In this document: one piece after another, positions 1 to 43,502 of the stretch
How positions within the stretch are numbered: the stretch's first letter is position 1
Layout of the letters: each line of letters opens with the position of its first letter
Source of the DNA: a virus
IMG/VR virus record: IMGVR_UViG_3300030451_004039
Location: 1 to 43,502 of that record
DNA: 43,502 nucleotides
Strand: one strand, 5' to 3'
The notes under the pieces: model-generated
The model's database searches: none
Told to the model about the DNA's origin: nothing
The model's input: the letters and a program-made list of their open reading frames with translations, nothing else
Translations under genes and position numbers: made by a program

Positions 1-159
1 ATTATAAGTAAAGTGTTCAGGTTTTTTAGCTATGTCTGATGATAGTAGATCGCGCTTAACCCAGCCATACGGAGATGGATAGTTATTGTACACTTGCAAT
101 TTGATGTCACCATCTTCATAGATTATTGCTGTTAAGTTATTAGTGGTTATATATTTCAT
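1..159 (-). CDS. Hypothetical protein, partial at left edge
   Basis: This open frame starts at ATG 157-159 (MKYITTNNLTAI) and runs off the window edge without a stop, giving 53 codons. An in-frame ATG lies 15 bases upstream at 174, but it falls inside the -10-like part of the promoter-like element at 161-196, so 159 is the better start. No family is recognised. The visible part is a small mixed-charge protein with a YEDGDIKLQVYNNY stretch. It is the last leftward gene seen and appears to have its own promoter. Confidence 0.55.
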   Translation of the reverse strand, partial: MKYITTNNLTAIIYEDGDIKLQVYNNYPSPYGWVKRDLLSSDIAKKPEHFTYN

Positions 160-160
160 A

Positions 161-196
161 ATATTATTATCCATTAGCGATCGTATTTATTTTGTA
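161..196 (-). promoter_or_regulatory. Promoter-like element, copy 5 of 5
   Basis: On the minus strand it reads TACAAA (196-191), a TACGA block, nine variable bases, then GATAATAATAT (171-161). The distance from TACAAA to GATAA is 19 bases, identical in all five copies. This copy overlaps the stop of the 187-435 gene. The next ATG is at 159, so any transcript from it would have almost no leader. Confidence 0.6.
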
Positions 197-435
197 ACTC
201 TTAACATTGAGTCCACTTTTATTAGTCTTTTCTCAGTTTGTTTTAGCCAATAATAATAATATTGAGCTACATCTTCATTTAATATTCCATGATTTACATC
301 TTCTTGTAACCAAGTAGTCATGTCTTGTATATTTATTATAGCTTCGCTAATATGTACTAAAGTACCATCTTGCTTTATTTCGTTGGGCGTAAGCATACTA
401 CCTACTAAACCAACTGTTAATATTAGTTTATTCAT
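187..435 (-). CDS. Small hypothetical protein with hydrophobic N-terminus
   Basis: An 82-residue protein with no family recognised. Residues 4-15 are hydrophobic (LILTVGLVGSML), which could be a weak signal or membrane anchor. The rest is polar with a Tyr-rich patch (QYYYYWLKQ) and looks helical. The ATG lies one base beyond the stop of the 31-residue membrane peptide gene upstream, so it is probably the last gene of the operon starting at 1099. Its stop overlaps the promoter-like element at 161-196. Confidence 0.6.
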   Translation of the reverse strand: MNKLILTVGLVGSMLTPNEIKQDGTLVHISEAIINIQDMTTWLQEDVNHGILNEDVAQYYYYWLKQTEKRLIKVDSMLRVTK

Positions 436-436
436 T

Positions 437-532
437 TTATTTTTTATTTTCTATTAAATCAAGTATTGTATCGAGTAATATAGTTACAACGACTATCGCT
501 GCAGCTACACATGGAAATGCTATTAATATCAT
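437..532 (-). CDS. 31-residue membrane peptide
   Basis: A tiny frame, MILIAFPCVAAAIVVVTILL and then a charged tail ending in ENKK. It is almost entirely one transmembrane helix (residues 2-20). Its ATG (530-532) overlaps the TGA of the 529-723 gene as ATGA, which supports coupled translation, and its stop is followed at once by the next ATG. Such peptides in phage early operons can modulate membrane proteins, but here the function is unknown. The case rests on operon packing rather than homology. Confidence 0.5.
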   Translation of the reverse strand: MILIAFPCVAAAIVVVTILLDTILDLIENKK

Positions 533-723
533 AATTGTATTACTTTTATTGGTATGTTGTAACAACCTTCTTCATAAAATATAACTTTGTCAAAGTCACT
601 TATATCATCTTCAAACTCATTTTCTATAAATTCTAATAGTTCTTGAGTTAATTCTGTTGACTCATGTGTTAGCCAAGTTGATTCTTCGTTTGTATTTTTA
701 GGTATTATTTCTAGTTCGTACAT
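529..723 (-). CDS. Small acidic hypothetical protein
   Basis: A 64-residue, strongly acidic protein (MYELEIIPKNTNEEST, then an LLEFIENEFEDDISDFDK stretch). No family is recognised. It overlaps the upstream gene (711-908) by 13 bases and the downstream membrane peptide by 4, so it is an interior gene of the leftward operon. Small acidic phage early proteins are sometimes DNA mimics or inhibitors of host enzymes; nothing in the sequence decides this. Confidence 0.65.
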   Translation of the reverse strand: MYELEIIPKNTNEESTWLTHESTELTQELLEFIENEFEDDISDFDKVIFYEEGCYNIPIKVIQL

Positions 724-908
724 ATCTCGTTAGTTAAATTGTAAATAGTTTTATCACTGTGGAACATATATTCTACTTCATTTAAGTTATATCCAAGTTG
801 TACAGAGATAAACTCGTCTAGTTCCATTTCATATTTTTCATAGTTTATATCATGGTATTGATGTACTTCACCACTGCCAAAGTCTAATATAGTTAATGTT
901 TGTTTCAT
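711..908 (-). CDS. Small acidic hypothetical protein
   Basis: A 65-residue protein (MKQTLTILDFGSGEVHQYHD at its start), acidic and Tyr-rich, with no recognised family. The first residues resemble a beta strand followed by a tight turn. Its ATG overlaps the stop of the 905-1099 gene by 4 bases (ATGA), and its 3' end overlaps the next gene by 13 bases. It is probably co-transcribed from the promoter-like element at 1121-1156. Confidence 0.65.
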   Translation of the reverse strand: MKQTLTILDFGSGEVHQYHDINYEKYEMELDEFISVQLGYNLNEVEYMFHSDKTIYNLTNEICTN

Positions 909-1099
909 AGTATTTGACTTAGTATTTCATAGTGATTGTCTTGTTGAGACTTAGTTAGATTGACCCACTTTGGATCGCCAGAATAGTTATCTAAGTGATT
1001 CATGATTTGCTGTTCGAGTTCAGCTTTTCTGATAGTTCTGTTTACTTCGTCAAATGCTCTTGACCAAGTCCAGTTTGAAGGATTATTTGGATTATACAT
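905..1099 (-). CDS. Small hypothetical protein, first gene of leftward operon
   Basis: A 64-residue protein (MYNPNNPSNWTWSRAFDEVN at its start), with a Trp-containing N-terminus and a helical middle (RTIRKAELEQQIMNHL). It is unrecognised. It is the first gene after the promoter-like element at 1121-1156, with a leader of about 20 bases containing AAACTAA repeats and no Shine-Dalgarno. Four following genes (711-908, 529-723, 437-532, 187-435) overlap or abut head to tail, so this is probably a five-gene transcript. Confidence 0.65.
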   Translation of the reverse strand: MYNPNNPSNWTWSRAFDEVNRTIRKAELEQQIMNHLDNYSGDPKWVNLTKSQQDNHYEILSQIL

Positions 1100-1120
1100 A
1101 AGCGTTAGTTTAATTAGTTT

Positions 1121-1156
1121 ATATTATTATCCTACGACTTTCGTAGTTAGTTTGTA
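1121..1156 (-). promoter_or_regulatory. Promoter-like element, copy 1 of 5
   Basis: The minus strand carries TACAAACTAACTACGA, nine bases, then GATAATAATAT. It lies just upstream of the 1099 start codon. The spacer contains a perfect inverted repeat, CTACGA-CTT-TCGTAG (1132-1146), which could be an operator. The TACAAA box overlaps the 3' end of the tRNA-like hairpin at 1155-1198. Confidence 0.65.
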
Positions 1157-1198
1157 GCACGGCGAGGAATCGAACCTCGCGTCTAACCATTCATGCTA
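1155..1198 (-). ncRNA. tRNA-like minihelix (acceptor plus T-arm, no anticodon arm)
   Basis: On the minus strand, TAGCATG (1198-1192) pairs over seven positions, one of them G-U, with CGTGCTA (1161-1155). Between them lie an 11-base linker containing the D-loop-like TGGTTAGA and a T-arm of GCGAGG (1180-1175), loop TTCGATT, CCTCGC (1167-1162). The T-loop TTCGATT is canonical. No anticodon arm fits, and no better 5' acceptor strand exists in the roughly 100 bases upstream. It may be a deleted tRNA, a tRNA-derived attachment site or a functional tRNA mimic. Bases 1207-1213 and 1233-1239 form a second 7-bp stem just 5' of it. Confidence 0.55.
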
Positions 1199-1272
1199 TG
1201 TGGTGCACTCGTTCATATTTGATTTACCAGTAAACGAGTAGAACTAACTGGACTTTAGTATGTATTCAAAGA

Positions 1273-1512
1273 TTACTCTTTGATTGTAGCTAATTCTCTA
1301 CAGAATTTAGGCACTGTGTTTGAATTAGTGTATGATTTGTACTCTTGAAAACATGGCATACTTTCAAACTTTTCTTGAAATAGTGAGTATATTTCGTCGT
1401 GGTCATAAGTAAATGTAATGTTTTTCTTGTTAGTAAAAGTGATTACAGTGTTTGTACCTAAAAGTGATTTTCTGATTACAAATCTTTTTGTTGTTAATTT
1501 ATTATTTTTCAT
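1273..1512 (-). CDS. Small basic hypothetical protein
   Basis: A 79-residue protein (MKNNKLTTKRFVIRKSLLGT at its start). The N-terminal third is basic and beta-rich (TKRFVIRKSLLGTNTVITFTNKKN), followed by a Phe/Tyr-rich acidic stretch (YDHDEIYSLFQEKFESM). No family is recognised. It has its own promoter-like element (1539-1574) and a short AAACTAA-rich leader. The tRNA-like element lies downstream in the same orientation, so a transcript reading through this gene would include it. Confidence 0.65.
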   Translation of the reverse strand: MKNNKLTTKRFVIRKSLLGTNTVITFTNKKNITFTYDHDEIYSLFQEKFESMPCFQEYKSYTNSNTVPKFCRELATIKE

Positions 1513-1538
1513 AGTTATATTTTTTAGTTTGTTAGTTT

Positions 1539-1574
1539 ATATTATTATCTAATTAAGTTCGTATTTAGTTTGTA
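1539..1574 (-). promoter_or_regulatory. Promoter-like element, copy 2 of 5
   Basis: The minus strand has TACAAACTAAATACGA, nine bases, then GATAATAATAT. It lies between the stop of the 55-residue gene (1577-1744) and the 1512 start codon, about 27 bases from that ATG. Confidence 0.65.
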
Positions 1575-1576
1575 AA

Positions 1577-1744
1577 TTATTTTATGTTGTCAAGCATAGT
1601 TAATAATTCAGTTAAGTTTTTTTCGCAATTAATATTTTGCAAATGATTTTTTAAATAGTTATTTTTTAAGTGCTCAGTTGTTATTGTAGTTGAGCTATGA
1701 AGTAAGTTTTTATGATTTAATATTTGAGTAATTAAGTTTTGCAT
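1577..1744 (-). CDS. 55-residue hypothetical protein
   Basis: A short frame beginning MQNLITQILNHKNLLHSSTT and ending LTELLTMLDNIK. It is Asn/Leu-rich and predicted helical, with no recognised family. Support is positional: its ATG follows the promoter-like element at 1767-1802 by about 22 bases, and its stop abuts the next promoter-like element. That is the same promoter-gene-promoter spacing as its neighbours. Confidence 0.55.
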   Translation of the reverse strand: MQNLITQILNHKNLLHSSTTITTEHLKNNYLKNHLQNINCEKNLTELLTMLDNIK

Positions 1745-1766
1745 ATTTGTAAGTTTTAATTAGTTT

Positions 1767-1802
1767 ATATTATTATCTATTTTACTTCGTAATTAGTTTG
1801 TA
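1767..1802 (-). promoter_or_regulatory. Promoter-like element, copy 3 of 5
   Basis: The minus strand has TACAAACTAATTACGA, nine bases, then GATAATAATAT. It lies between the stop of the 37-residue membrane peptide gene (1803) and the ATG of the 55-residue gene (1744). Confidence 0.65.
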
Positions 1803-1916
1803 TTAAATTCCATTAAATGAAATATAATTTATAATTCCATAAGTGACAATATTGTAAGTGATTAATGTTAATATTGTAGTTAAAAATAGTATTGAAATAT
1901 AGTTTAAAGTTTTCAT
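1803..1916 (-). CDS. 37-residue membrane peptide
   Basis: A tiny frame, MKTLNYISILFLTTILTLIT followed by another hydrophobic, Ile-rich segment. Nearly the whole peptide is hydrophobic and would span a membrane. No family is recognised. The region 1917-2009 upstream has AAACTAA repeats on the minus strand like the other leaders, but no copy of the conserved promoter-like element, so it is probably read from 2181-2215 through the gene at 2010-2144. The stop abuts promoter copy 3. Confidence 0.45.
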   Translation of the reverse strand: MKTLNYISILFLTTILTLITYNIVTYGIINYISFNGI

Positions 1917-2009
1917 TTTAGTTAGTTTAAAAGGTGTATATTAGTTTATTAGTTAAAATTAGTTTAGGAGTGTAATGTAAATTGTCTAAGTATATAACAG
2001 AATAATTTA

Positions 2010-2144
2010 CTATTTTTTAAAGTTATTCATCATATGTTGTTTAACAATTGCCTCAATTTCTTCAGCAGTTTTAAAGTTTTTGTTTACAAATTTTCCATTT
2101 ATCACTTCATTGTGAGCTTCGATGTTAGTTAAATATTTTTTCAT
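2010..2144 (-). CDS. 44-residue hypothetical protein
   Basis: A short frame starting MKKYLTNIEAHNEVINGKFV and ending MMNNFKK, with a helical acidic middle (KTAEEIEAIVKQHMM). It is unrecognised. It is the first leftward gene after the divergent region and follows promoter copy 4. Its leader contains a hairpin, GTAGC-AACGAA-GCTAC on the minus strand (2177-2162), that could stabilise or regulate the mRNA. Confidence 0.5.
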   Translation of the reverse strand: MKKYLTNIEAHNEVINGKFVNKNFKTAEEIEAIVKQHMMNNFKK

Positions 2145-2161
2145 AATTTCTAAGTTTAAGT

Positions 2162-2177
2162 TGTAGCTTCGTTGCTA
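2162..2177 (-). promoter_or_regulatory. 5' leader hairpin
   Basis: A perfect 5-bp stem, GTAGC with GCTAC, and a 6-base loop. It sits between promoter copy 4 and the 2144 start codon. There is no T-run after it, so it is not a terminator. It may protect the 5' end of the mRNA or regulate translation. Confidence 0.35.
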
Positions 2178-2180
2178 CGT

Positions 2181-2215
2181 ATATATTATCTATGCATCGT
2201 CGTAACTAGTTTGTA
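2181..2215 (-). promoter_or_regulatory. Promoter-like element, copy 4 of 5
   Basis: The minus strand has TACAAACTAGTTACGA, nine bases, then GATAATATAT. It has the same 19-base spacing as the other copies and a slightly different downstream half. It drives the leftward genes nearest the divergent region. Confidence 0.6.
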
Positions 2216-8869: not shown

Positions 8870-10417
8870 ATGCAAGAATTAAAGTTAGTTAAAAACCTGG
8901 CTTTTGGCGAATATGCTAGAAGTCAGGTATTAACTGGCGTTGAGAAACTAACTAATGCAGTAGGTTCAACGCTAGGAGCAAGTGGTAAATGTGTTATATT
9001 AGAAGATAGCAATGGCCAACCACAAATAACTAAGGATGGAGTAAGCGTAGCTAATGCTATTACATTACAAGATCCTATTGAAAATATTGGAGCAACACTA
9101 ATTAAACAAGCTGCTCAAAGAACAGTATCAGATGCTGGCGATGGTACAACTACAGCAACTGTTCTTGCTAAAGCTATATTAGATGAAGCTCAAACTCACT
9201 CTTTGTTAGATGATGGAAGAAGCATGAAAGAAGGTATTAACAAAGGTGTTGTTAAAGTTTTAGAGTATATAACTAAAAACTCTAAAAAAGTAACAGGTAA
9301 AAAAATTGATCAAGTAGCTACTATATCAGCTAACAATGATAAAGAGCTTGGTGAGATTATAGGTAAGGCTTTTAAAATGGTTGATGAAACAGGTATAGTC
9401 ATGATGGAAACTAATGAACAACCTGAAACAGTAGTTGAGCTAATAGAAGGTGTTCAGTATGATCAAGCCTTGAAAAATAACCATTTTATTACCAACAAAG
9501 AAAAAGGAACGGCTGAGTTAGATAATCCACTCGTACTCATCGTTGAGTCACAAATAACCAACATAAGGAAAATTCAGTCGATCCTTGAATATGTAATTAA
9601 AAATGGTAAAAGTCTTTTAATCATTGCAGACGTAGATCAACAAGTAACTTCTGCTTTAGCTATGAACAAAATGAAGGGCAATATAAAAGTAAACATTATA
9701 GATGCTCCTGTTTATGGAATAAATAAAAAAGATATATTAGAAGATTTATGTGCTGTAACAGGCGCTAAACTTATTAATGAAGATTTAGGAGACGACATGG
9801 ATCTTATTCAGCCTGAGTTTTTAGGTTCTTGTATTAAGTCAATTACTAATCACGAAGAAACTATATTACGGGTAGATTTATCAGATAAACCTAAAGTTAA
9901 AGAAACTATAGATTTATTAGAAGATCAAATAAAAAATACTAAAAATCCTAATATAATAATAAGACTAGAAAAAAGATTAGCCAAACTTAATGCTAAAGTA
10001 GCTACAGTAAAGGTAGGTGCTAATTCTGAAGTAGAACTAAAAGAAAAGAAAGATAGAGTAGAAGATGCTATTTGTGCTACAAAAGCCGCGATAAAAGAAG
10101 GTATAGTGCCTGGTGGTGGGATTGCGTTGTTAAACGCTAGCATGCATTTAAAAGCAGAATGTATTGGAGAAGAAGTATTGTATCAAGCAATACGTAAACC
10201 ATACGAGCTTATATTAAAAAATGCAGGCGTAATAGAATATGTTGATCCAAACGAAAAAGGTAAAGGACTAAACGTGGTTACAGGAGAAACGGTAGATATG
10301 GTAAACGCCGGAATTATTGATCCTTTACTAGTTACTAAAAGTGCTTTAATTAACGCGGCTTCAGTAGCAACAACTATATTATCAACTGATTGTGTAATTA
10401 ATAATATTAGAGCATGA
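8870..10417 (+). CDS. groEL: Chaperonin GroEL (phage-encoded, Hsp60)
   Basis: A 515-residue ATP-driven folding chamber subunit. Nucleotide-site residues are intact: ITKDGV (Asp56), GDGTTTA (from about residue 90), RVEDA (Asp399, matching the catalytic Asp398 of E. coli) and PGGGIAL (414-420). The apical domain (about 190-370) is divergent. The usual FDRGYLSPYF is YDQALKNNHF here (residues 197-206), altering residues that line the substrate and GroES groove. The Gly-Gly-Met tail is missing; the protein ends at NNIRA. The leader is ATTAAATTAAATTAA with no Shine-Dalgarno. It overlaps groES by 4 bases, in the reverse of the usual bacterial order. It probably helps fold capsid or fibre proteins. 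Confidence 0.95.
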   Translation: MQELKLVKNLAFGEYARSQVLTGVEKLTNAVGSTLGASGKCVILEDSNGQPQITKDGVSVANAITLQDPIENIGATLIKQAAQRTVSDAGDGTTTATVLAKAILDEAQTHSLLDDGRSMKEGINKGVVKVLEYITKNSKKVTGKKIDQVATISANNDKELGEIIGKAFKMVDETGIVMMETNEQPETVVELIEGVQYDQALKNNHFITNKEKGTAELDNPLVLIVESQITNIRKIQSILEYVIKNGKSLLIIADVDQQVTSALAMNKMKGNIKVNIIDAPVYGINKKDILEDLCAVTGAKLINEDLGDDMDLIQPEFLGSCIKSITNHEETILRVDLSDKPKVKETIDLLEDQIKNTKNPNIIIRLEKRLAKLNAKVATVKVGANSEVELKEKKDRVEDAICATKAAIKEGIVPGGGIALLNASMHLKAECIGEEVLYQAIRKPYELILKNAGVIEYVDPNEKGKGLNVVTGETVDMVNAGIIDPLLVTKSALINAASVATTILSTDCVINNIRA

Positions 10418-10674
10418 GAGCAGTAGGTAAATATATAGTTATAGAGCAAATAAAAGAAGTTGACGTTAAAACCAAAGGTGGTTTAATCTTAGCTGAAAAG
10501 CAAAGAGAAGACGTTAGATACAGAAGAGCTAAGGTTATTAAACCTGGCTCTGATGTAGAAGTGTTAAAAACAGGTGATGAAATATATTATGATAAAGCAG
10601 CTGGTTTTAATATTGAAATAAACAAAGAACAATATAAGGTTATTAAAGAACACGATGTAGTTATAGTATTATGA
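10414..10674 (+). CDS. groES: Co-chaperonin GroES (phage-encoded, Hsp10)
   Basis: An 86-residue lid protein for the GroEL chamber. The beta-barrel pattern is clear: MRAVGKYIVIEQIKEV, mobile loop with TKGGLIL (the GroEL-binding hydrophobic tripeptide as in GGIVL), AKVIKPG, LKTGDEIYYDKAAG, ending VIKEHDVVIVL. It is slightly shorter than the usual 95-97 residues. Its ATG overlaps the groEL stop (ATGA), and its own stop overlaps the next ATG. Co-expression with the unusual GroEL suggests a matched pair rather than use of the host co-chaperonin. Confidence 0.92.
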   Translation: MRAVGKYIVIEQIKEVDVKTKGGLILAEKQREDVRYRRAKVIKPGSDVEVLKTGDEIYYDKAAGFNIEINKEQYKVIKEHDVVIVL

Positions 10675-36659: not shown

Positions 36660-38414
36660 ATGGCATATCAAATACCAAACATTGCAGGGCTAGCAGCCGC
36701 TAGGAATAACAGAAGAGCTCAAGCTATACAAGACTTCGGGACTAAGCTTGCCGCTATGCAAAAAGAAAAAAATAAAAGAGAAGCTCAAATAGTAAAAGAC
36801 GCTAATGCTCGTAATGTAGATTTTTTAAATTACTTTAATGAGCAACCTAAATCTAGTAGTCAAGCTTTTAATGCAGCTGCAGAAGAATATGTGAGAAAGG
36901 CATCGATGAAGCAAGAAGAGATGTATAGAGCCGCTTATGGCGCTGAAGGTAGTCCACAAGCTAGAGCAGCGTATAATGCTCAAGTAATGAAAGATAAAAG
37001 AAATTTAAAAGCTATAGGTGCTTGGATGACTTTAGGTAATGCTGCTACTGTGGCTGTAACTGAGAATCAAGCAGCAGCCGATCAAGATACATCGTTAGGC
37101 GCTTTTACTAGAGGTAATGATATAAATAAACTAGGTTTTCAAAGTGATTTAGCTAATTCAAAGTTTACTAATTTTTTACTAGAAGATGATGCTAATGGTA
37201 ATATAAATTTAAAAGGTTTTTATAAAGGTGAAGATTATGATAATTATCTAACAGGTAGTGAAGACAAAACCTATAGTGAAAGAAATTTAACAGCAGACGT
37301 TCAGGCACATGAAGCAGGTCAAGCTTGGTTTACTCAAATACAACAAGAAGATTTATTGCAAAATAAATTAGGTAAAATATGGAACGATAAAAACCCAGCT
37401 ATAGGATTAAGTAATTTATTTCAACCGGAAACTAGAGAAAAGAAATATTTAAAAAATGGAAAATGGTTTTATACTAAAGAAAAAGTATACAACCCAGTGG
37501 AAATAAAAACTGATTTACTTACTAAATATGCTAACAGGCTTGACACTCAAATAAACGGACAAGGTTTTGATAAAACTTGGGATCAACTATATAAAGGAGG
37601 TTACATAAGAAACAGTAAAGGAGAATATCTTCAAGAAGGAGATATTGCTTGGAATACAGTTAAACAGATTAAAAATATATCTGATGAAATGTTTATGAAG
37701 CAATATGGTGATTTAACAGGTGATGATAAAATTACTCAAGAAGATAGAGATTTATTTGTTGAAAACATGAAAGACGCTGCTAGAGAAGGATTAGCTAATT
37801 ACTTTGCGGAGGCTATGGGACCACAAAGCAATCAAGTTATTTCTACTCAAACCACTGATCAATATGAAAAAGAATCTAAAGGTAAAGGTTATACAGCTTC
37901 GCAAATAAATAATTTTATGATCCATAAAGACGCTTACGAAGCTAATAAAAGAGATGCTAAAGAAGATGCTACATTAGACACTGCTTTAACACTACAGCAA
38001 GCTATGATTAAAAACCTTAATAATAATTCTCATTTAGAAAGTTTAGGTAACGTACAATTTGTTGATTATAACACAGCGATAGACATGCTAGAACAAACTG
38101 GACAAAAACCTGATTATGAAAACAGCATGAATAAAGGAAATATATATGCTTTAAAACCTACCGCGACTACTATAGAAGGAATTAAAGTGCTTCAATATAG
38201 TCTTTTACCAGACAATGGAATTAAAGGTATTGAACTTGAAAATATTATTAGTATTCCAATAGAAGATGCTGATGGAAAGGAAATAAAAGGAAATATCTTA
38301 AAAAGAGAAAAAGCTATACAAAGACTATTAAATAATGCTATTAATATAGATAGGGCTTCGGTAAACTATCTTGAAGGTATACCACAAAATAACAATCCAC
38401 TTATAGATGAATGA
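36660..38414 (+). CDS. Internal virion / ejection protein
   Basis: A 584-residue protein, mostly helical, with Ala/Gln/Lys-rich segments near the N-terminus (MAYQIPNIAGLAAARNNRRA, then QAIQDFGTKLAAMQKEKN) and a long charged middle. It is probably a T7 gp15-like ejection protein by position between the small coiled-coil protein and the giant protein. Its stop overlaps the giant gene by eight bases. Confidence 0.68.
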   Translation: MAYQIPNIAGLAAARNNRRAQAIQDFGTKLAAMQKEKNKREAQIVKDANARNVDFLNYFNEQPKSSSQAFNAAAEEYVRKASMKQEEMYRAAYGAEGSPQARAAYNAQVMKDKRNLKAIGAWMTLGNAATVAVTENQAAADQDTSLGAFTRGNDINKLGFQSDLANSKFTNFLLEDDANGNINLKGFYKGEDYDNYLTGSEDKTYSERNLTADVQAHEAGQAWFTQIQQEDLLQNKLGKIWNDKNPAIGLSNLFQPETREKKYLKNGKWFYTKEKVYNPVEIKTDLLTKYANRLDTQINGQGFDKTWDQLYKGGYIRNSKGEYLQEGDIAWNTVKQIKNISDEMFMKQYGDLTGDDKITQEDRDLFVENMKDAAREGLANYFAEAMGPQSNQVISTQTTDQYEKESKGKGYTASQINNFMIHKDAYEANKRDAKEDATLDTALTLQQAMIKNLNNNSHLESLGNVQFVDYNTAIDMLEQTGQKPDYENSMNKGNIYALKPTATTIEGIKVLQYSLLPDNGIKGIELENIISIPIEDADGKEIKGNILKREKAIQRLLNNAINIDRASVNYLEGIPQNNNPLIDE

Positions 38415-41400
38415 TACTTATTACTACACTAATTCTAAAGGTGAAGTAGTAGAAGCTAACTACGAACAAGTAGAACAAGCTGCTAAACATTTTGGCTACC
38501 CTGATGCTCAAACGTATATGGATGACAAGGGTATCACTACAGATCCTCCTGCTAAAAAGCAAGAAGCACCTATATTTTCTGGAGAAGAAACTAAAGACGC
38601 TATTGATAAAGCTCAAGATGAACAAACTGAAATACAAACAAAAAGAGATAATCAAAGAGAAGCTGATTTAGATAATCGTATAGCAAATGAAAAACCTAAG
38701 GTAAATAAAAGTCTGTCTCAGATAGTTCGCGAAGCTAAAATGAAAGAGACAACTGAAAAAGCTATAGAATTAGATGACGCTCATACTTGGATGGATAATG
38801 TAGATGAAGCTCAGTTTTCTAATTCAAGCAAAAATAAAATGGCTGTAATGCTTAACGAAGCTTATCCAGGTTTTACCGCTAAAAATTACACTACCTATAG
38901 ATATGATTATGGTCCTGATGGTCCAGTTCCAATACCAGAGCCTAAATTAAGTTTTGTAGATGATAAGACTGGCGATGAGATACAATTAGATCCTAGAAGT
39001 AAAAGTTTTAAAACAGATGTTAGAGGATTTGTTAATAAGCATGGTGGTACAAAAGAATACAAGCCAGATGAAGAGACTAATAAATTAGTAAAAGAAGCCG
39101 AAGAAGCTATAGATCTTTCTACTTATCAATTATCTGAAATACAAAATGTAACTGAAAAAGCTAATGAAGAACTATTTAAGCCTTACACTGAAATGGAAAC
39201 TGTTTCAGATGGCTTTGTAGATAGTGGAACTGGTACACTTGTAAGTGGCAGTAAAAGAGTAGAAAAAACTATTCAACCATATGAAAACGAATTAAGTCAA
39301 GCAGAAGATATTTTAAATAAAGAAGTAGCTTATTTAAATTCTCAAAGATCTCCTAGTGATCAACTTCCTGCACCTACGCAAGAACAAATACAAGATAAAG
39401 CTAAGCAAATTATAGCAGCTGATATGACATATAAAATGCAAGACAATAACTTGCAAGATTATTTAGAAGGATTATCAGAATCTGAAGTAGCTAAACTAAA
39501 CGTGTATGGTGCAAAAAGCAAAGATAAAAAAGTAAAAAAAGCAGGAGAGTTATTAGCAGTGCAAGATATGGAAATGCAAAACTTTTTAGATGAAAGTAAA
39601 AATCCAGACTTAATGCTAGTTAACTATGTTAATGAAACTTTAGCAGATCCAACACAAGAGTTTATTCCTGAAGAAGGAGAAAATACTATTAAGCTTGATA
39701 ATGGAAAAATAATAGGAGAAACACTATATAATAAATATGTAGAAGCTCAGTCAAATGTAAACAACCAATTAGTTGTTTTACAAAAAAGAGATAAAGAAAT
39801 AAACTCTTTAACAGAGCAAGTAGCAGATTTAAATATTAAAATGGATTTATATGGTAGAGATTATAGTAACTTAAATAAGTTTACTTATAATTTCTTAAAA
39901 GGAGTAGAGTCCATTGGTTCTGGCATTGTCTATTACGGAGGTAGACTAGCTAGTGAAGTTATGCAAGTAACACCTGGTTTAAAAACTGAAGGCGAATTAT
40001 TTCAAAAAGACTTAACTGATTGGCAAATAGAAAGATTTAGGCAAGATCAAGAACGTAGAAAAGTATTAGCTAAAGATGTTTCATTTGGTAGTTTTAGAGA
40101 TAAAAATGGAGACTTTGATTTTAGTAGATTTGGTAGATTTGTAAATCAAGAGGTAGGTACACAATTACCTATACTAGCTTCTATGGTAGCTACTGGTGGT
40201 ACTGGCTCAGCAGTTTTACCCGCTCTTACTATTGGTACGTATAGTGCTGGTGAAAGACTAGCAGAGTTTGATGTAGCAGAAGCTACTGATCCTAACTATA
40301 ATCCATCTGGTGTAGAAAAATGGTTTGTAAGTACAGGATATGGTGTGCTTGATGGTACTTTAGGTACTTTACCTACTGCTAGAATATTGAGAAATAGTGT
40401 AAAATCAATAGGCACTTCTAGTACTAGAGGATTATTAGATTGGAAAGATGGATTTAAAAACTCTTGGCGTAATGGAACTCTTAGAAAAAATGTAATATAT
40501 GAACCAGCTATAGATATGGCTGGTGAAGTAGGTACTACATGGGGTCAAAATGCTTTAGATGGAAGACCTATATTAACCAATACAGGTCATACGGCATTTA
40601 CTTCTGGAATGTTTAGTGTATTTTTAGGAGGTGGACCTATAGTATATGGTCATACTTTAACTGCTTTTTCTGACCATAAAAAATGGAAAGAAACTAGAGA
40701 CTTAACAAATCAAAGAAATATACTTAAAGGTAAGCTAGATAAAGTAGATGGTCGTACTGCAATTGGAAGATCTTATAAGCAGCAAATAATAAGTTTAGAT
40801 AAACAAATTGAAAATAACATAAACAAAGTAGATTATAATGTTAATAATAAGCTTTCACCCAAAGCTTTTAACATGTATACTAATGCTACTAAAAGGCAAG
40901 AAGAAATAAGAGCGCAAGCTTCTGCTATAGTTAATGATCAAAATGTAAAAAATCTTCAAGAAAAACAAAATGAATTAAAAGCTCTTAAACAAGAGTTTGA
41001 TAATATACAATATGCTAGAGATCTTTGGAGAGATGAAGATGCTTTTGGTAATGAGTTTGTTTTATTAAGCTCTGGAAATGAACAGCAAAAAGCTAGATAC
41101 CAAAGAATAAAACAAGAAGCTATTACTAAATTAAGAGTAGAAAAGAATAAAGCTCCTGACTTTCAACCGGACAATAAAGATATAAATGCAGCTGCATACG
41201 ATATATATGTAAGAGAAGAAATACAAGATAGAATAGATCAGTCTAATAAAGCTAGTAATAATTTTAAAACTATTATATTAGAAACTAAGCAGGACGCAAT
41301 AGACGAAGTCAATAGATTAGTCAATGAAGAAACTAGTGTAGCAGCATCAGAAGAAACTACTTCTATACAAGATACTAAAACTATAGTAAAGAAAATAAAC

Positions 41401-43502
41401 GAAGGAAAGTTAAACGGTTTTCAAGTTGGCAATACTAACTACGCTATAATGGAAAACGCCATAGCTAATGAAAAGACTGAAATAACTATACACGAGCCTG
41501 GACATCAAGTATTTCAAGAAATATTACAAACTAGAGACGCTGATTTTACTGATATGGCTAAGTCTGTTTTAGAGTGGACGCGAGTTAATAATCCAAACGT
41601 ATTTAAAAGATTAACTACGCAAGCTGGTGTTAATCTATTAACTAGTGATAAATTAGCTGATAGAAAAAGAGGTGCAGAAGAAGTAGTTGTAGAATTTTTA
41701 GAAGAAGTTTCTGCAGGCAGATTAAACTTTGATAGACTACAGGATAAAGAATTAGCTGCTTATTTTTCTTATATGGCATCTGACATGATGCAAAAAAATA
41801 CTCCTAACAATTTTGCTTTAAATTTAAAAGGTAAAAACGATGCTATTAGTTTCTTAGCTACATTAGCTACTAAAATAAAAAGAGGTGATATAACTGAAAG
41901 AGACATACAAGAAGCTAGACAATCTTCTGTAATACAAGATATTGAAAAAAGAACTAGTGAGACAGCAGCCATAGAATTAGCTACTAGAGTTAAGGAATCG
42001 CAATCGCCTATTAAAGAGTCTGTTTCAGAAACACCTGAAGAAAAAGCTAGTCGAAGAAAAAGAAGAGATGAAAATGTTAAAAGGCTTTATGATGAGGCTC
42101 CTAAAACAAAGCAAGAGTTTAAAGAGTATTTACAAACACCAGAAGGTAAAAGTGACTTAGGTGAGATATTAGTAGATTATTATCCAGACATGTTAGCTAT
42201 AGCTAAAGGTGACGTTGACAAAGCTGTAGCTGGTTATCAACCTTTAATAAAACATATTGAAGCGTTTAATCCTACTACTAATACAGACTTAGCTGGTTAT
42301 ATTGGTACATACTTAAAAGCTAAAGTTGGTACTGGTGCAAAACGAGTAGCTAAGTCAGAAGGTCCAAAAGCTTCGACTAGAATAGGAGAACAAAGAGATG
42401 GTGGTAGAGCTTTTGATGTAGCAGACACTAGAGCAGAAGCAGATCAAACAGTTGATTTAAATTTAAGACAGTTAGCAGATATAAAAGAAGGTAGTGACTT
42501 ATATAACTTTATATTAGATAAAACTAAAAAAGTATTAGCTACTTTTAAACCTAAAGTAAAAGGCTTAAACGCAGAAGTTGTAGAACTAGCTAAACAACCT
42601 ACAAACTCTAAAGCTATTGCTCAAGTAAATAAAGCTTATAAAAGTGTTAGACAACAATTAAATAACGACTTTAATACTGAAATGTTTAAAGAAGTTAAAA
42701 ACACTATTAAAAAACCTAACTATAAGTCTTGGCTAGAAAATAATAAAAAAGCTATACTTAGTTTAGATATAAACACTTTAGTAGGTTTTGAAAGATTATC
42801 TAAAAATAAAATATTTGCTGTTCCCGAGAAAACAAATATGAGCCCTAGCGAAATTGACGCTGCGTTGTCTGCTGGTAGAAAAGCTGATTTAGTTTATATT
42901 AATCCTACATCTGGACCTACACTATATAAAAGATTAGATCCTTCACCTGAACAAATATCAGAGTTCTTCTCTAAACGTGGTAGAGATAACGCTTTGGCAA
43001 AAGCTATAGCTGCAAAGCTAGGTGAAAACGCTACAATGGAAGTGCTAAAAGGAGATGTTGGCGGAAGTAAAGTAATAGAAATATTCTCTGATAATAATCC
43101 AGATCTTAATTGGATACCGTTAGAAAACATGTTACAAATGTTTGGTACAATAACAGATCAAGGTTTAGACGCTAAACTATCAGAAGAAATATCTTCTAAA
43201 CTTTCAGCAGAAAATTATCAAAAGTTTGTAAAAGGTCAAGATACTTTTATTAAGTCTATAGTTGATGTAGCTAAAAATCAAGGTATACCTTTAGATGAAG
43301 CAGAAAGAAAATCTTTAATAGGAGATTTATTTGATGGTAATTATTCTGACTTAAAACAAAAAGCAGCTGTAGTAAACTACTTTAATAAAATACTAAGACC
43401 TTATGCTAAGCAAACTGCTAAATATAAAGCTGTTAAAATAGATTTAGATACTTATATAAATGAAGTATTAACTGATGATACTATAGATAGATATGCAGAT
43501 TT
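38407..43502 (+). CDS. Giant internal virion / ejection protein with zincin motif, partial
   Basis: The frame starts at ATG 38407 (MNDTYYYTNSKGEVVEANYE) and stays open for 1698 codons to the window edge. The N-terminal 450 residues are charged and helical. Residues about 579-750 include Gly/Ala-rich hydrophobic stretches (PILASMVATGGTGSAVLPAL; TSGMFSVFLGGGPIVYG) that could insert into a membrane. HEPGH (1029-1033) in TEITIHEPGHQVFQE is a zinc-peptidase signature, with Glu1091/1092/1096 in GAEEVVVEFLEE as candidate third ligands. Further domains follow. It resembles T7 gp16-type ejection or polyvalent proteins. No lysozyme or polymerase motif was recognised in this part. Confidence 0.75.
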   Translation, partial: MNDTYYYTNSKGEVVEANYEQVEQAAKHFGYPDAQTYMDDKGITTDPPAKKQEAPIFSGEETKDAIDKAQDEQTEIQTKRDNQREADLDNRIANEKPKVNKSLSQIVREAKMKETTEKAIELDDAHTWMDNVDEAQFSNSSKNKMAVMLNEAYPGFTAKNYTTYRYDYGPDGPVPIPEPKLSFVDDKTGDEIQLDPRSKSFKTDVRGFVNKHGGTKEYKPDEETNKLVKEAEEAIDLSTYQLSEIQNVTEKANEELFKPYTEMETVSDGFVDSGTGTLVSGSKRVEKTIQPYENELSQAEDILNKEVAYLNSQRSPSDQLPAPTQEQIQDKAKQIIAADMTYKMQDNNLQDYLEGLSESEVAKLNVYGAKSKDKKVKKAGELLAVQDMEMQNFLDESKNPDLMLVNYVNETLADPTQEFIPEEGENTIKLDNGKIIGETLYNKYVEAQSNVNNQLVVLQKRDKEINSLTEQVADLNIKMDLYGRDYSNLNKFTYNFLKGVESIGSGIVYYGGRLASEVMQVTPGLKTEGELFQKDLTDWQIERFRQDQERRKVLAKDVSFGSFRDKNGDFDFSRFGRFVNQEVGTQLPILASMVATGGTGSAVLPALTIGTYSAGERLAEFDVAEATDPNYNPSGVEKWFVSTGYGVLDGTLGTLPTARILRNSVKSIGTSSTRGLLDWKDGFKNSWRNGTLRKNVIYEPAIDMAGEVGTTWGQNALDGRPILTNTGHTAFTSGMFSVFLGGGPIVYGHTLTAFSDHKKWKETRDLTNQRNILKGKLDKVDGRTAIGRSYKQQIISLDKQIENNINKVDYNVNNKLSPKAFNMYTNATKRQEEIRAQASAIVNDQNVKNLQEKQNELKALKQEFDNIQYARDLWRDEDAFGNEFVLLSSGNEQQKARYQRIKQEAITKLRVEKNKAPDFQPDNKDINAAAYDIYVREEIQDRIDQSNKASNNFKTIILETKQDAIDEVNRLVNEETSVAASEETTSIQDTKTIVKKINEGKLNGFQVGNTNYAIMENAIANEKTEITIHEPGHQVFQEILQTRDADFTDMAKSVLEWTRVNNPNVFKRLTTQAGVNLLTSDKLADRKRGAEEVVVEFLEEVSAGRLNFDRLQDKELAAYFSYMASDMMQKNTPNNFALNLKGKNDAISFLATLATKIKRGDITERDIQEARQSSVIQDIEKRTSETAAIELATRVKESQSPIKESVSETPEEKASRRKRRDENVKRLYDEAPKTKQEFKEYLQTPEGKSDLGEILVDYYPDMLAIAKGDVDKAVAGYQPLIKHIEAFNPTTNTDLAGYIGTYLKAKVGTGAKRVAKSEGPKASTRIGEQRDGGRAFDVADTRAEADQTVDLNLRQLADIKEGSDLYNFILDKTKKVLATFKPKVKGLNAEVVELAKQPTNSKAIAQVNKAYKSVRQQLNNDFNTEMFKEVKNTIKKPNYKSWLENNKKAILSLDINTLVGFERLSKNKIFAVPEKTNMSPSEIDAALSAGRKADLVYINPTSGPTLYKRLDPSPEQISEFFSKRGRDNALAKAIAAKLGENATMEVLKGDVGGSKVIEIFSDNNPDLNWIPLENMLQMFGTITDQGLDAKLSEEISSKLSAENYQKFVKGQDTFIKSIVDVAKNQGIPLDEAERKSLIGDLFDGNYSDLKQKAAVVNYFNKILRPYAKQTAKYKAVKIDLDTYINEVLTDDTIDRYAD

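Follow-up and report, generated by a model that had tools for sequence, protein, structure and literature searches.

The leftward early region of the virus record IMGVR_UViG_3300030451_004039 carries five copies of a long, rigidly spaced element, and the question raised by this locus is which transcription machinery reads them. The window, i.e., the whole stretch of DNA analysed here, comprises the 43,502 nucleotides (43.5 kb) of this virus record. Its terminase, portal and major virion proteins group with those of marine Bacteroidota podoviruses; the identity of the portal protein is 50% to that of MW202828 (an uncultured phage), 41-43% to those of Flavobacterium phage elemoF and Maribacter phage Panino, and 34% to that of Cellulophaga phage phi38:1. 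To our knowledge, transcription control in Bacteroidota phages is little known beyond the crAss group. The motif was not found to be reported in the open literature searched. Here we present a description of the element, of its distribution in related phages and of its candidate readers. The copies are regarded as promoters of one phage-specific class, which are probably read by the host core RNA polymerase together with a phage-encoded factor of the sigma-70 family.

The element in the window and in related phages

The copies lie on the minus strand at 161-196, 1121-1156, 1539-1574, 1767-1802 and 2180-2215, the last of these being the first in the leftward module. A relaxed consensus, searched at zero mismatches, yielded exactly these five, which had been listed in an earlier note made from the letters of the window; a stricter pattern recovered four of them. 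None of 100 dinucleotide shuffles of the window matched the real hit count at up to 3 mismatches. A gap of 19 bases separates TACAAA from GATAA in every copy, so that the rigid spacing described in the earlier note holds, as does the location of each copy upstream of a leftward open reading frame (ORF; starts at 159, 1099, 1512, 1744 and 2144). The rightward genes had been described as free of copies, and the four plus-strand hits in the window all had 3 mismatches, near the 1.2 expected by chance. The general form of the motif text was kept, with two amendments: copy 161-196 reads TACAAAATAAATACGA, with A and not C, and the fifth copy, which had been placed at 2181-2215, spans 2180-2215 and reads TACAAACTAGTTACGA, with terminal GATAATATATA instead of GATAATAATAT. 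A sixth copy lies past the left edge of the window, as seen in the near-identical phage record G017 (769-800).

From about 60 related marine phages, 281 distinct copies were gathered. The consensus consists of TACAAACTAAATACGA, nine loosely constrained bases (N9), GATAATA, five further bases (N5) and a purine. With a strict pattern, 20 viral contig stretches were found to contain the element. Whole records held 1-12 copies each at up to 2 mismatches, on one strand per record with rare exceptions, and a motif matrix gave 126 hits of at least 18 bits in 18 records (reversed-sequence control: 0). Conservation in relatives, proposed earlier as a check, was confirmed by the search of related phage genomes. 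Random occurrence inside genes, which would have spoken against the motif, was not observed: very few copies lie inside genes, and the motif is confined to the leftward module. The GATAAT box is near constant between phages, the blocks upstream of it drift, and the nine-base spacer is weakly conserved (118 copies). In a set of 84,980 species genomes of bacteria and archaea, just 7 stretches contain the exact motif. As far as the sequences go, the motif is a genuine, widespread promoter class.

Predicted start sites and promoter geometry

Position 37 of the motif, 12 bases past the G of GATAAT, is A in 86, G in 28, T in 4 and C in 0 of the seed copies (n = 118), corresponding to a purine in 114 of 118; these copies had been found without using position 37. 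In 54 of the 281 copies (44 distinct N-termini), this is also the exact position of the first ATG that opens a frame; the adjacent offsets account for 2 and 4 cases. Because the conserved purine and the ATG peak coincide there, position 37 is the likely transcription start (+1), and with the ATG at +1 many mRNAs of motif genes would therefore be leaderless. In Flavobacterium psychrophilum, leaderless mRNAs account for 5.5% (PMC9723704). Within the window, copy 1 (TACAAAATAAATACGA-N9-GATAATAATAT) has its predicted start at 159, the A of an ATG, and its mRNA would be leaderless. For this gene the ATG at 159 is preferred over that at 174, which falls within the -10 box, and the homologues in relatives begin at the same ATG, 12 nt past the G of GATAAT. 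The predicted starts of copies 2 to 5 are 1119, 1537, 1765 and 2178, with leaders of 20, 25, 21 and 34 nt, respectively.

With position 37 as +1, GATAAT occupies -12 to -7 and CAAACT -35 to -30, separated by a spacer of 17 bp, and a third block, ATACGA, is located at -27 to -22 in most phages. Two boxes at a spacing of about 17 bp have the geometry of sigma-factor promoters, and their sequences are unlike the host consensus. The earlier statement that the element does not match the Bacteroidota promoter (TTG and TAnnTTTG) is correct, neither box being part of the motif; the corresponding sigma-A box of F. psychrophilum, TAnnTTTG, spans -12 to -5 (PMC9723704). The distance of the -10-type box from the start is the same in both cases.

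The same geometry bears on the proposal, made in the earlier note, of a phage-encoded or virion-packaged RNA polymerase; the types considered here are those of N4, crAss and T7. A phage-specific sequence ahead of a gene block is common to the promoters of N4 and crAss-like virion polymerases and to the element described here, ATACGA...GG resembles part of the T7 promoter, and copy 2 can fold a short hairpin, its spacer region forming CTACGA-AAG-TCGTAG. Moreover, the late module ends in a gene for a giant virion protein (38407-43502, plus strand; cut by the window end, 1698 amino acids (aa) in the window and 1692-3860 aa in relatives), which recalls virion-carried polymerases. No T7-type or multisubunit RNA polymerase was found in 19 related genomes (the PF00940 control for the T7 type was silent, and a crAss-type model was not searched), nor did Pfam scans of most ORFs of two related genomes reveal an RNA polymerase. 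The giant virion protein contains a HEPGH protease-like motif; as a polymerase candidate it was rejected, given that its window part had no Pfam or PHROG match and the homologues of two relatives had no solved relative in the PDB. The likeness to T7 was set aside as well, since a T7-type gene was not found and the start position is wrong: the purine and the ATG at position 37 suit a -10/-35 geometry, whereas a start of the T7 type would be expected at the G of GATAAT. By eye, the small hairpin is present in copy 2 and in none of the other four copies of the window, and a hairpin promoter of the N4 type was dropped for this reason. With no polymerase found, and with GATAAT at -12 to -7 and a 17-bp spacer as in sigma-directed promoters, a phage polymerase is a highly improbable reader.

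A phage sigma factor and its neighbour as candidate readers

A sigma-factor match was obtained in the early modules of two long records. Among the 17 motif records searched, nine have a sigma-70-family gene, and the remaining eight end within or near the motif region, short of the expected site. Every motif record that reaches the distal early module has this gene, usually adjoining a small gene for a helix-turn-helix (HTH) protein. MW202828, elemoF, phi38:1 and Panino are without the sigma gene and without the motif, and no repeated early motif was found in these sigma-less relatives except for a weak ACTATCAAAA in phi38:1. The phage sigma factor (about 251 aa) has regions 2 and 4, and its profile matches the structures of SigA (4e-9) and FliA (8e-9). 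The gene of the HTH protein (206 aa) is close to the sigma gene in nearly all records and is absent from the same four relatives.

In a reverse test, the sigma protein alone served as the query, which gave 51 loci. The motif was detected by pattern in 38 of 50 of their records and by matrix in 41 of the 51 loci, with 0 control hits. Regarding the ten matrix-negative loci, seven have less than 2.2 kb upstream of the sigma gene and L199 has 3.2 kb only. The other two have diverged motifs, namely CACGGACT-N17-GATAAT in L202 and, in L194, a form with CACAAA, a spacer shorter by one base and CGATAAT.

This co-occurrence points to the sigma protein as the reader of the motif, possibly with help from the HTH protein. 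Carried by the host core RNA polymerase, the phage sigma factor would most likely redirect host transcription to phage genes. The -10 box GATAAT and the -35 box CAAACT would be recognised by the sigma-bearing host core enzyme, and the ATACGA block is a possible binding site of the HTH protein from the neighbouring gene. Transcription would begin at the purine 12 bases past the G of GATAAT, which gives a leaderless mRNA where this purine is the A of an ATG. By comparison with relatives whose modules are arranged similarly, e.g., G004, we infer that the phage of the window carries the sigma and HTH genes to the left of its cut end. The suggestion of a phage activator or a modified host enzyme in the earlier note came closest to this outcome; the host core enzyme would carry a phage sigma factor and perhaps be aided by the HTH protein as an activator.

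Host-type promoters (TTG-N17-23-TAnnTTTG) were counted in intergenic DNA. The sigma-less relatives have 12 vs 2.7 expected (0 of 200 shuffles), and the phages with the sigma gene have 6 vs 5.7 expected, which is no enrichment. (A depletion of host promoters in the latter, seen with a reversed-sequence control, was dropped, because the dinucleotide shuffle shows non-enrichment only.) These counts are relevant to the view that the copies serve as immediate-early promoters for the host RNA polymerase in its unmodified form, carrying a host sigma factor, and that the phage sigma factor is made from them and used later. Such a role would suit the location of the copies, which open the leftward module ahead of small genes, with the sigma gene farther downstream. 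However, the motif does not fit the known host consensus, the sigma-less relatives use host-type promoters and not the motif, and bacterial chromosomes almost entirely lack the exact motif, which makes reading by the unmodified host enzyme quite improbable.

A further explanation is activation in the style of MotA, in which the host sigma-A holoenzyme reads the -10 box, the role of a -35 is taken by the 16-base box with a DNA-binding protein of the phage (probably the HTH protein of 206 aa) bound to it, and the phage sigma factor serves another class of genes. As in the MotA/AsiA middle promoters of T4, a phage-specific box near -30 is combined with a sigma-type -10 at normal distance and with a possible DNA-binding helper. 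The box is long (16 bases, centre near -30), its second half lies beyond the usual sigma contacts, the HTH gene is found near the sigma gene in nearly all records, and the protein is confidently predicted to fold with an HTH at its C-terminus. In a partial distance test, the upstream box was slightly closer to the HTH protein than to the sigma factor, but tree-change counts did not favour the HTH protein (ancestry uncorrected in both). A fold search with the HTH protein yielded no solved relative, MotA or otherwise, nor is a homologue of MotA or AsiA known in these phages. Unlike in T4, the -10 GATAAT is unmatched to the host sigma factor, differing from the F. psychrophilum box mentioned above, and a sigma gene is present. 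In addition, L193 keeps the motif, with an altered -35 block, yet an HTH homologue is not detectable there. Taken together, MotA-style activation is unlikely.

A tentative and less likely possibility is that a promoter of three blocks is read by the sigma factor and its HTH partner together, with a fixed -10 and upstream blocks that diverge between phages. Delivery of the sigma factor with the virion may start such a system, an idea put forward because host-type promoters are not enriched.

Several points weigh against the phage sigma factor as the reader. Within the module, the sigma gene comes after the motif cluster, and in many cases a motif copy stands about 2 kb ahead of it. The sigma gene is not within the window, which ends before the expected site. 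Were the sigma factor the only reader of the motif, the cycle would have to be set going by something else, and an enrichment of host-type promoters was not found; the cycle would be started either by another promoter, or by virion-delivered sigma factor, or by weak reading of a few copies by the host polymerase. The ATACGA block sits where a sigma factor alone seldom makes base contacts. When motif variants were compared with the sigma and HTH proteins (Mantel test, tree changes and residue association; ancestry uncorrected), neither protein was clearly followed. Shared descent could in part explain the association; the four sigma-less relatives are other lineages. Finally, the sigma factor could serve late genes instead, though no late promoter motif was found in the phages searched. 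(A late-strand candidate was rejected, its top k-mers stemming from the conserved coding end of the groEL gene.)

Phage sigma factors with promoters of their own are known from Bacillus phage SPO1 (gp28, gp33/gp34) and from T4 (gp55). The phages described here share with these systems a sigma-family protein encoded by the phage, -10/-35 promoters unlike those of the host across one gene class and, presumably, the use of the host core enzyme. They differ in the Bacteroidota host, the third block at -27 to -22, the linked HTH gene, the share of leaderless copies (about one fifth) and the presence of the motif upstream of the sigma gene itself, which it possibly drives. The kind is thus known, and the variant, the host group, the third block, the linked HTH gene and the leaderless output appear to be new. 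For an abundant group of marine phages, a precise and predictive promoter is now available, with start sites given to the base and a likely sigma factor and possible partner named. The diverged promoters form a natural series for studying how phages escape the unusual sigma-A of their host, and promoter and sigma factor could serve as an orthogonal expression pair for flavobacteria.

Genes and other features of the region

The genes that follow the five copies are all on the minus strand. The gene of copy 1 (1..159, MKYITTNNLTAIIY...) continues past the window edge. Copy 2 precedes a gene of 64 aa (905..1099, MYNPNNPSNW...), copy 3 one of 79 aa (1273..1512, MKNNKLTTKRFVIRKS...) that is conserved near the module start in relatives, copy 4 one of 55 aa (1577..1744, MQNLITQIL...) and copy 5 one of 44 aa (2010..2144, MKKYLTNIEAHNE...). 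A small early protein with the zinc-ribbon pattern CKCG...CVxCST is conserved in five of the related records (G007, G008, G010, G011 and G017). By eye it was taken for DksA/TraR, an assignment that was rejected, as Pfam gave no support for the G011 member.

A tRNA-like mini element is located at 1155..1198 on the minus strand, its end overlapping the first bases of copy 2 of the promoter; it has a 7-bp acceptor-like stem and a T arm, but no anticodon arm. Similar mini RNAs lie between early genes in other loci (L184 3377-3465, L186 4348-4427, L188 2913-3000, L127 11525-11644 and, on the minus strand, L133 449-536). Their 7-bp acceptor stem is mostly GGGCGTG/CACGTCC with the G3-U70 pair of alanine tRNA, which the window copy lacks, and they have a T arm, a D-like AAATGGTTAG and a variable insert of 20-90 nt that replaces the anticodon arm. 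Three of them match the Rfam tmRNA model below the cut-off (E 1e-9 to 1e-11), and ARAGORN calls none. The mini RNAs are on the early strand and often end a few bases from a promoter copy, a T arm being found at most 60 nt upstream in 17 of 278 sites.

Regarding the seven stretches of bacterial and archaeal genomes with the exact motif, the contigs L203 and L209 belong to the same phage group by protein matches, L205 may belong to it, and L204 and L206 look bacterial. The chromosome-sized flavobacterial contigs L207 (position 180, minus strand) and L208 (position 4274, plus strand) share a stretch of 80 bp that is nearly identical in both and includes a full motif copy. It precedes a small exported-looking gene (MKTKITIATLLFGFTVNAQ...), near which an integrase-like gene is found in L207; the exported-looking gene may belong to the host or to an island and respond to the phage sigma factor.

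In the divergent stretch between leftward and rightward genes (window about 2390-2445), an inverted repeat, GTGACATTAGCCT...AGGCAAnTGTCAC, is conserved, with a G/C-rich block around GGGNCCC ahead of it. The repeat is found at the same place in G003, G004, G008, G011, G012 and G014 and could serve as an origin or in late control. The rightward genes include one for a GroEL-like chaperonin (8870-10417, plus strand), followed by a GroES-like gene (10414-10674), and both are common to the relatives.

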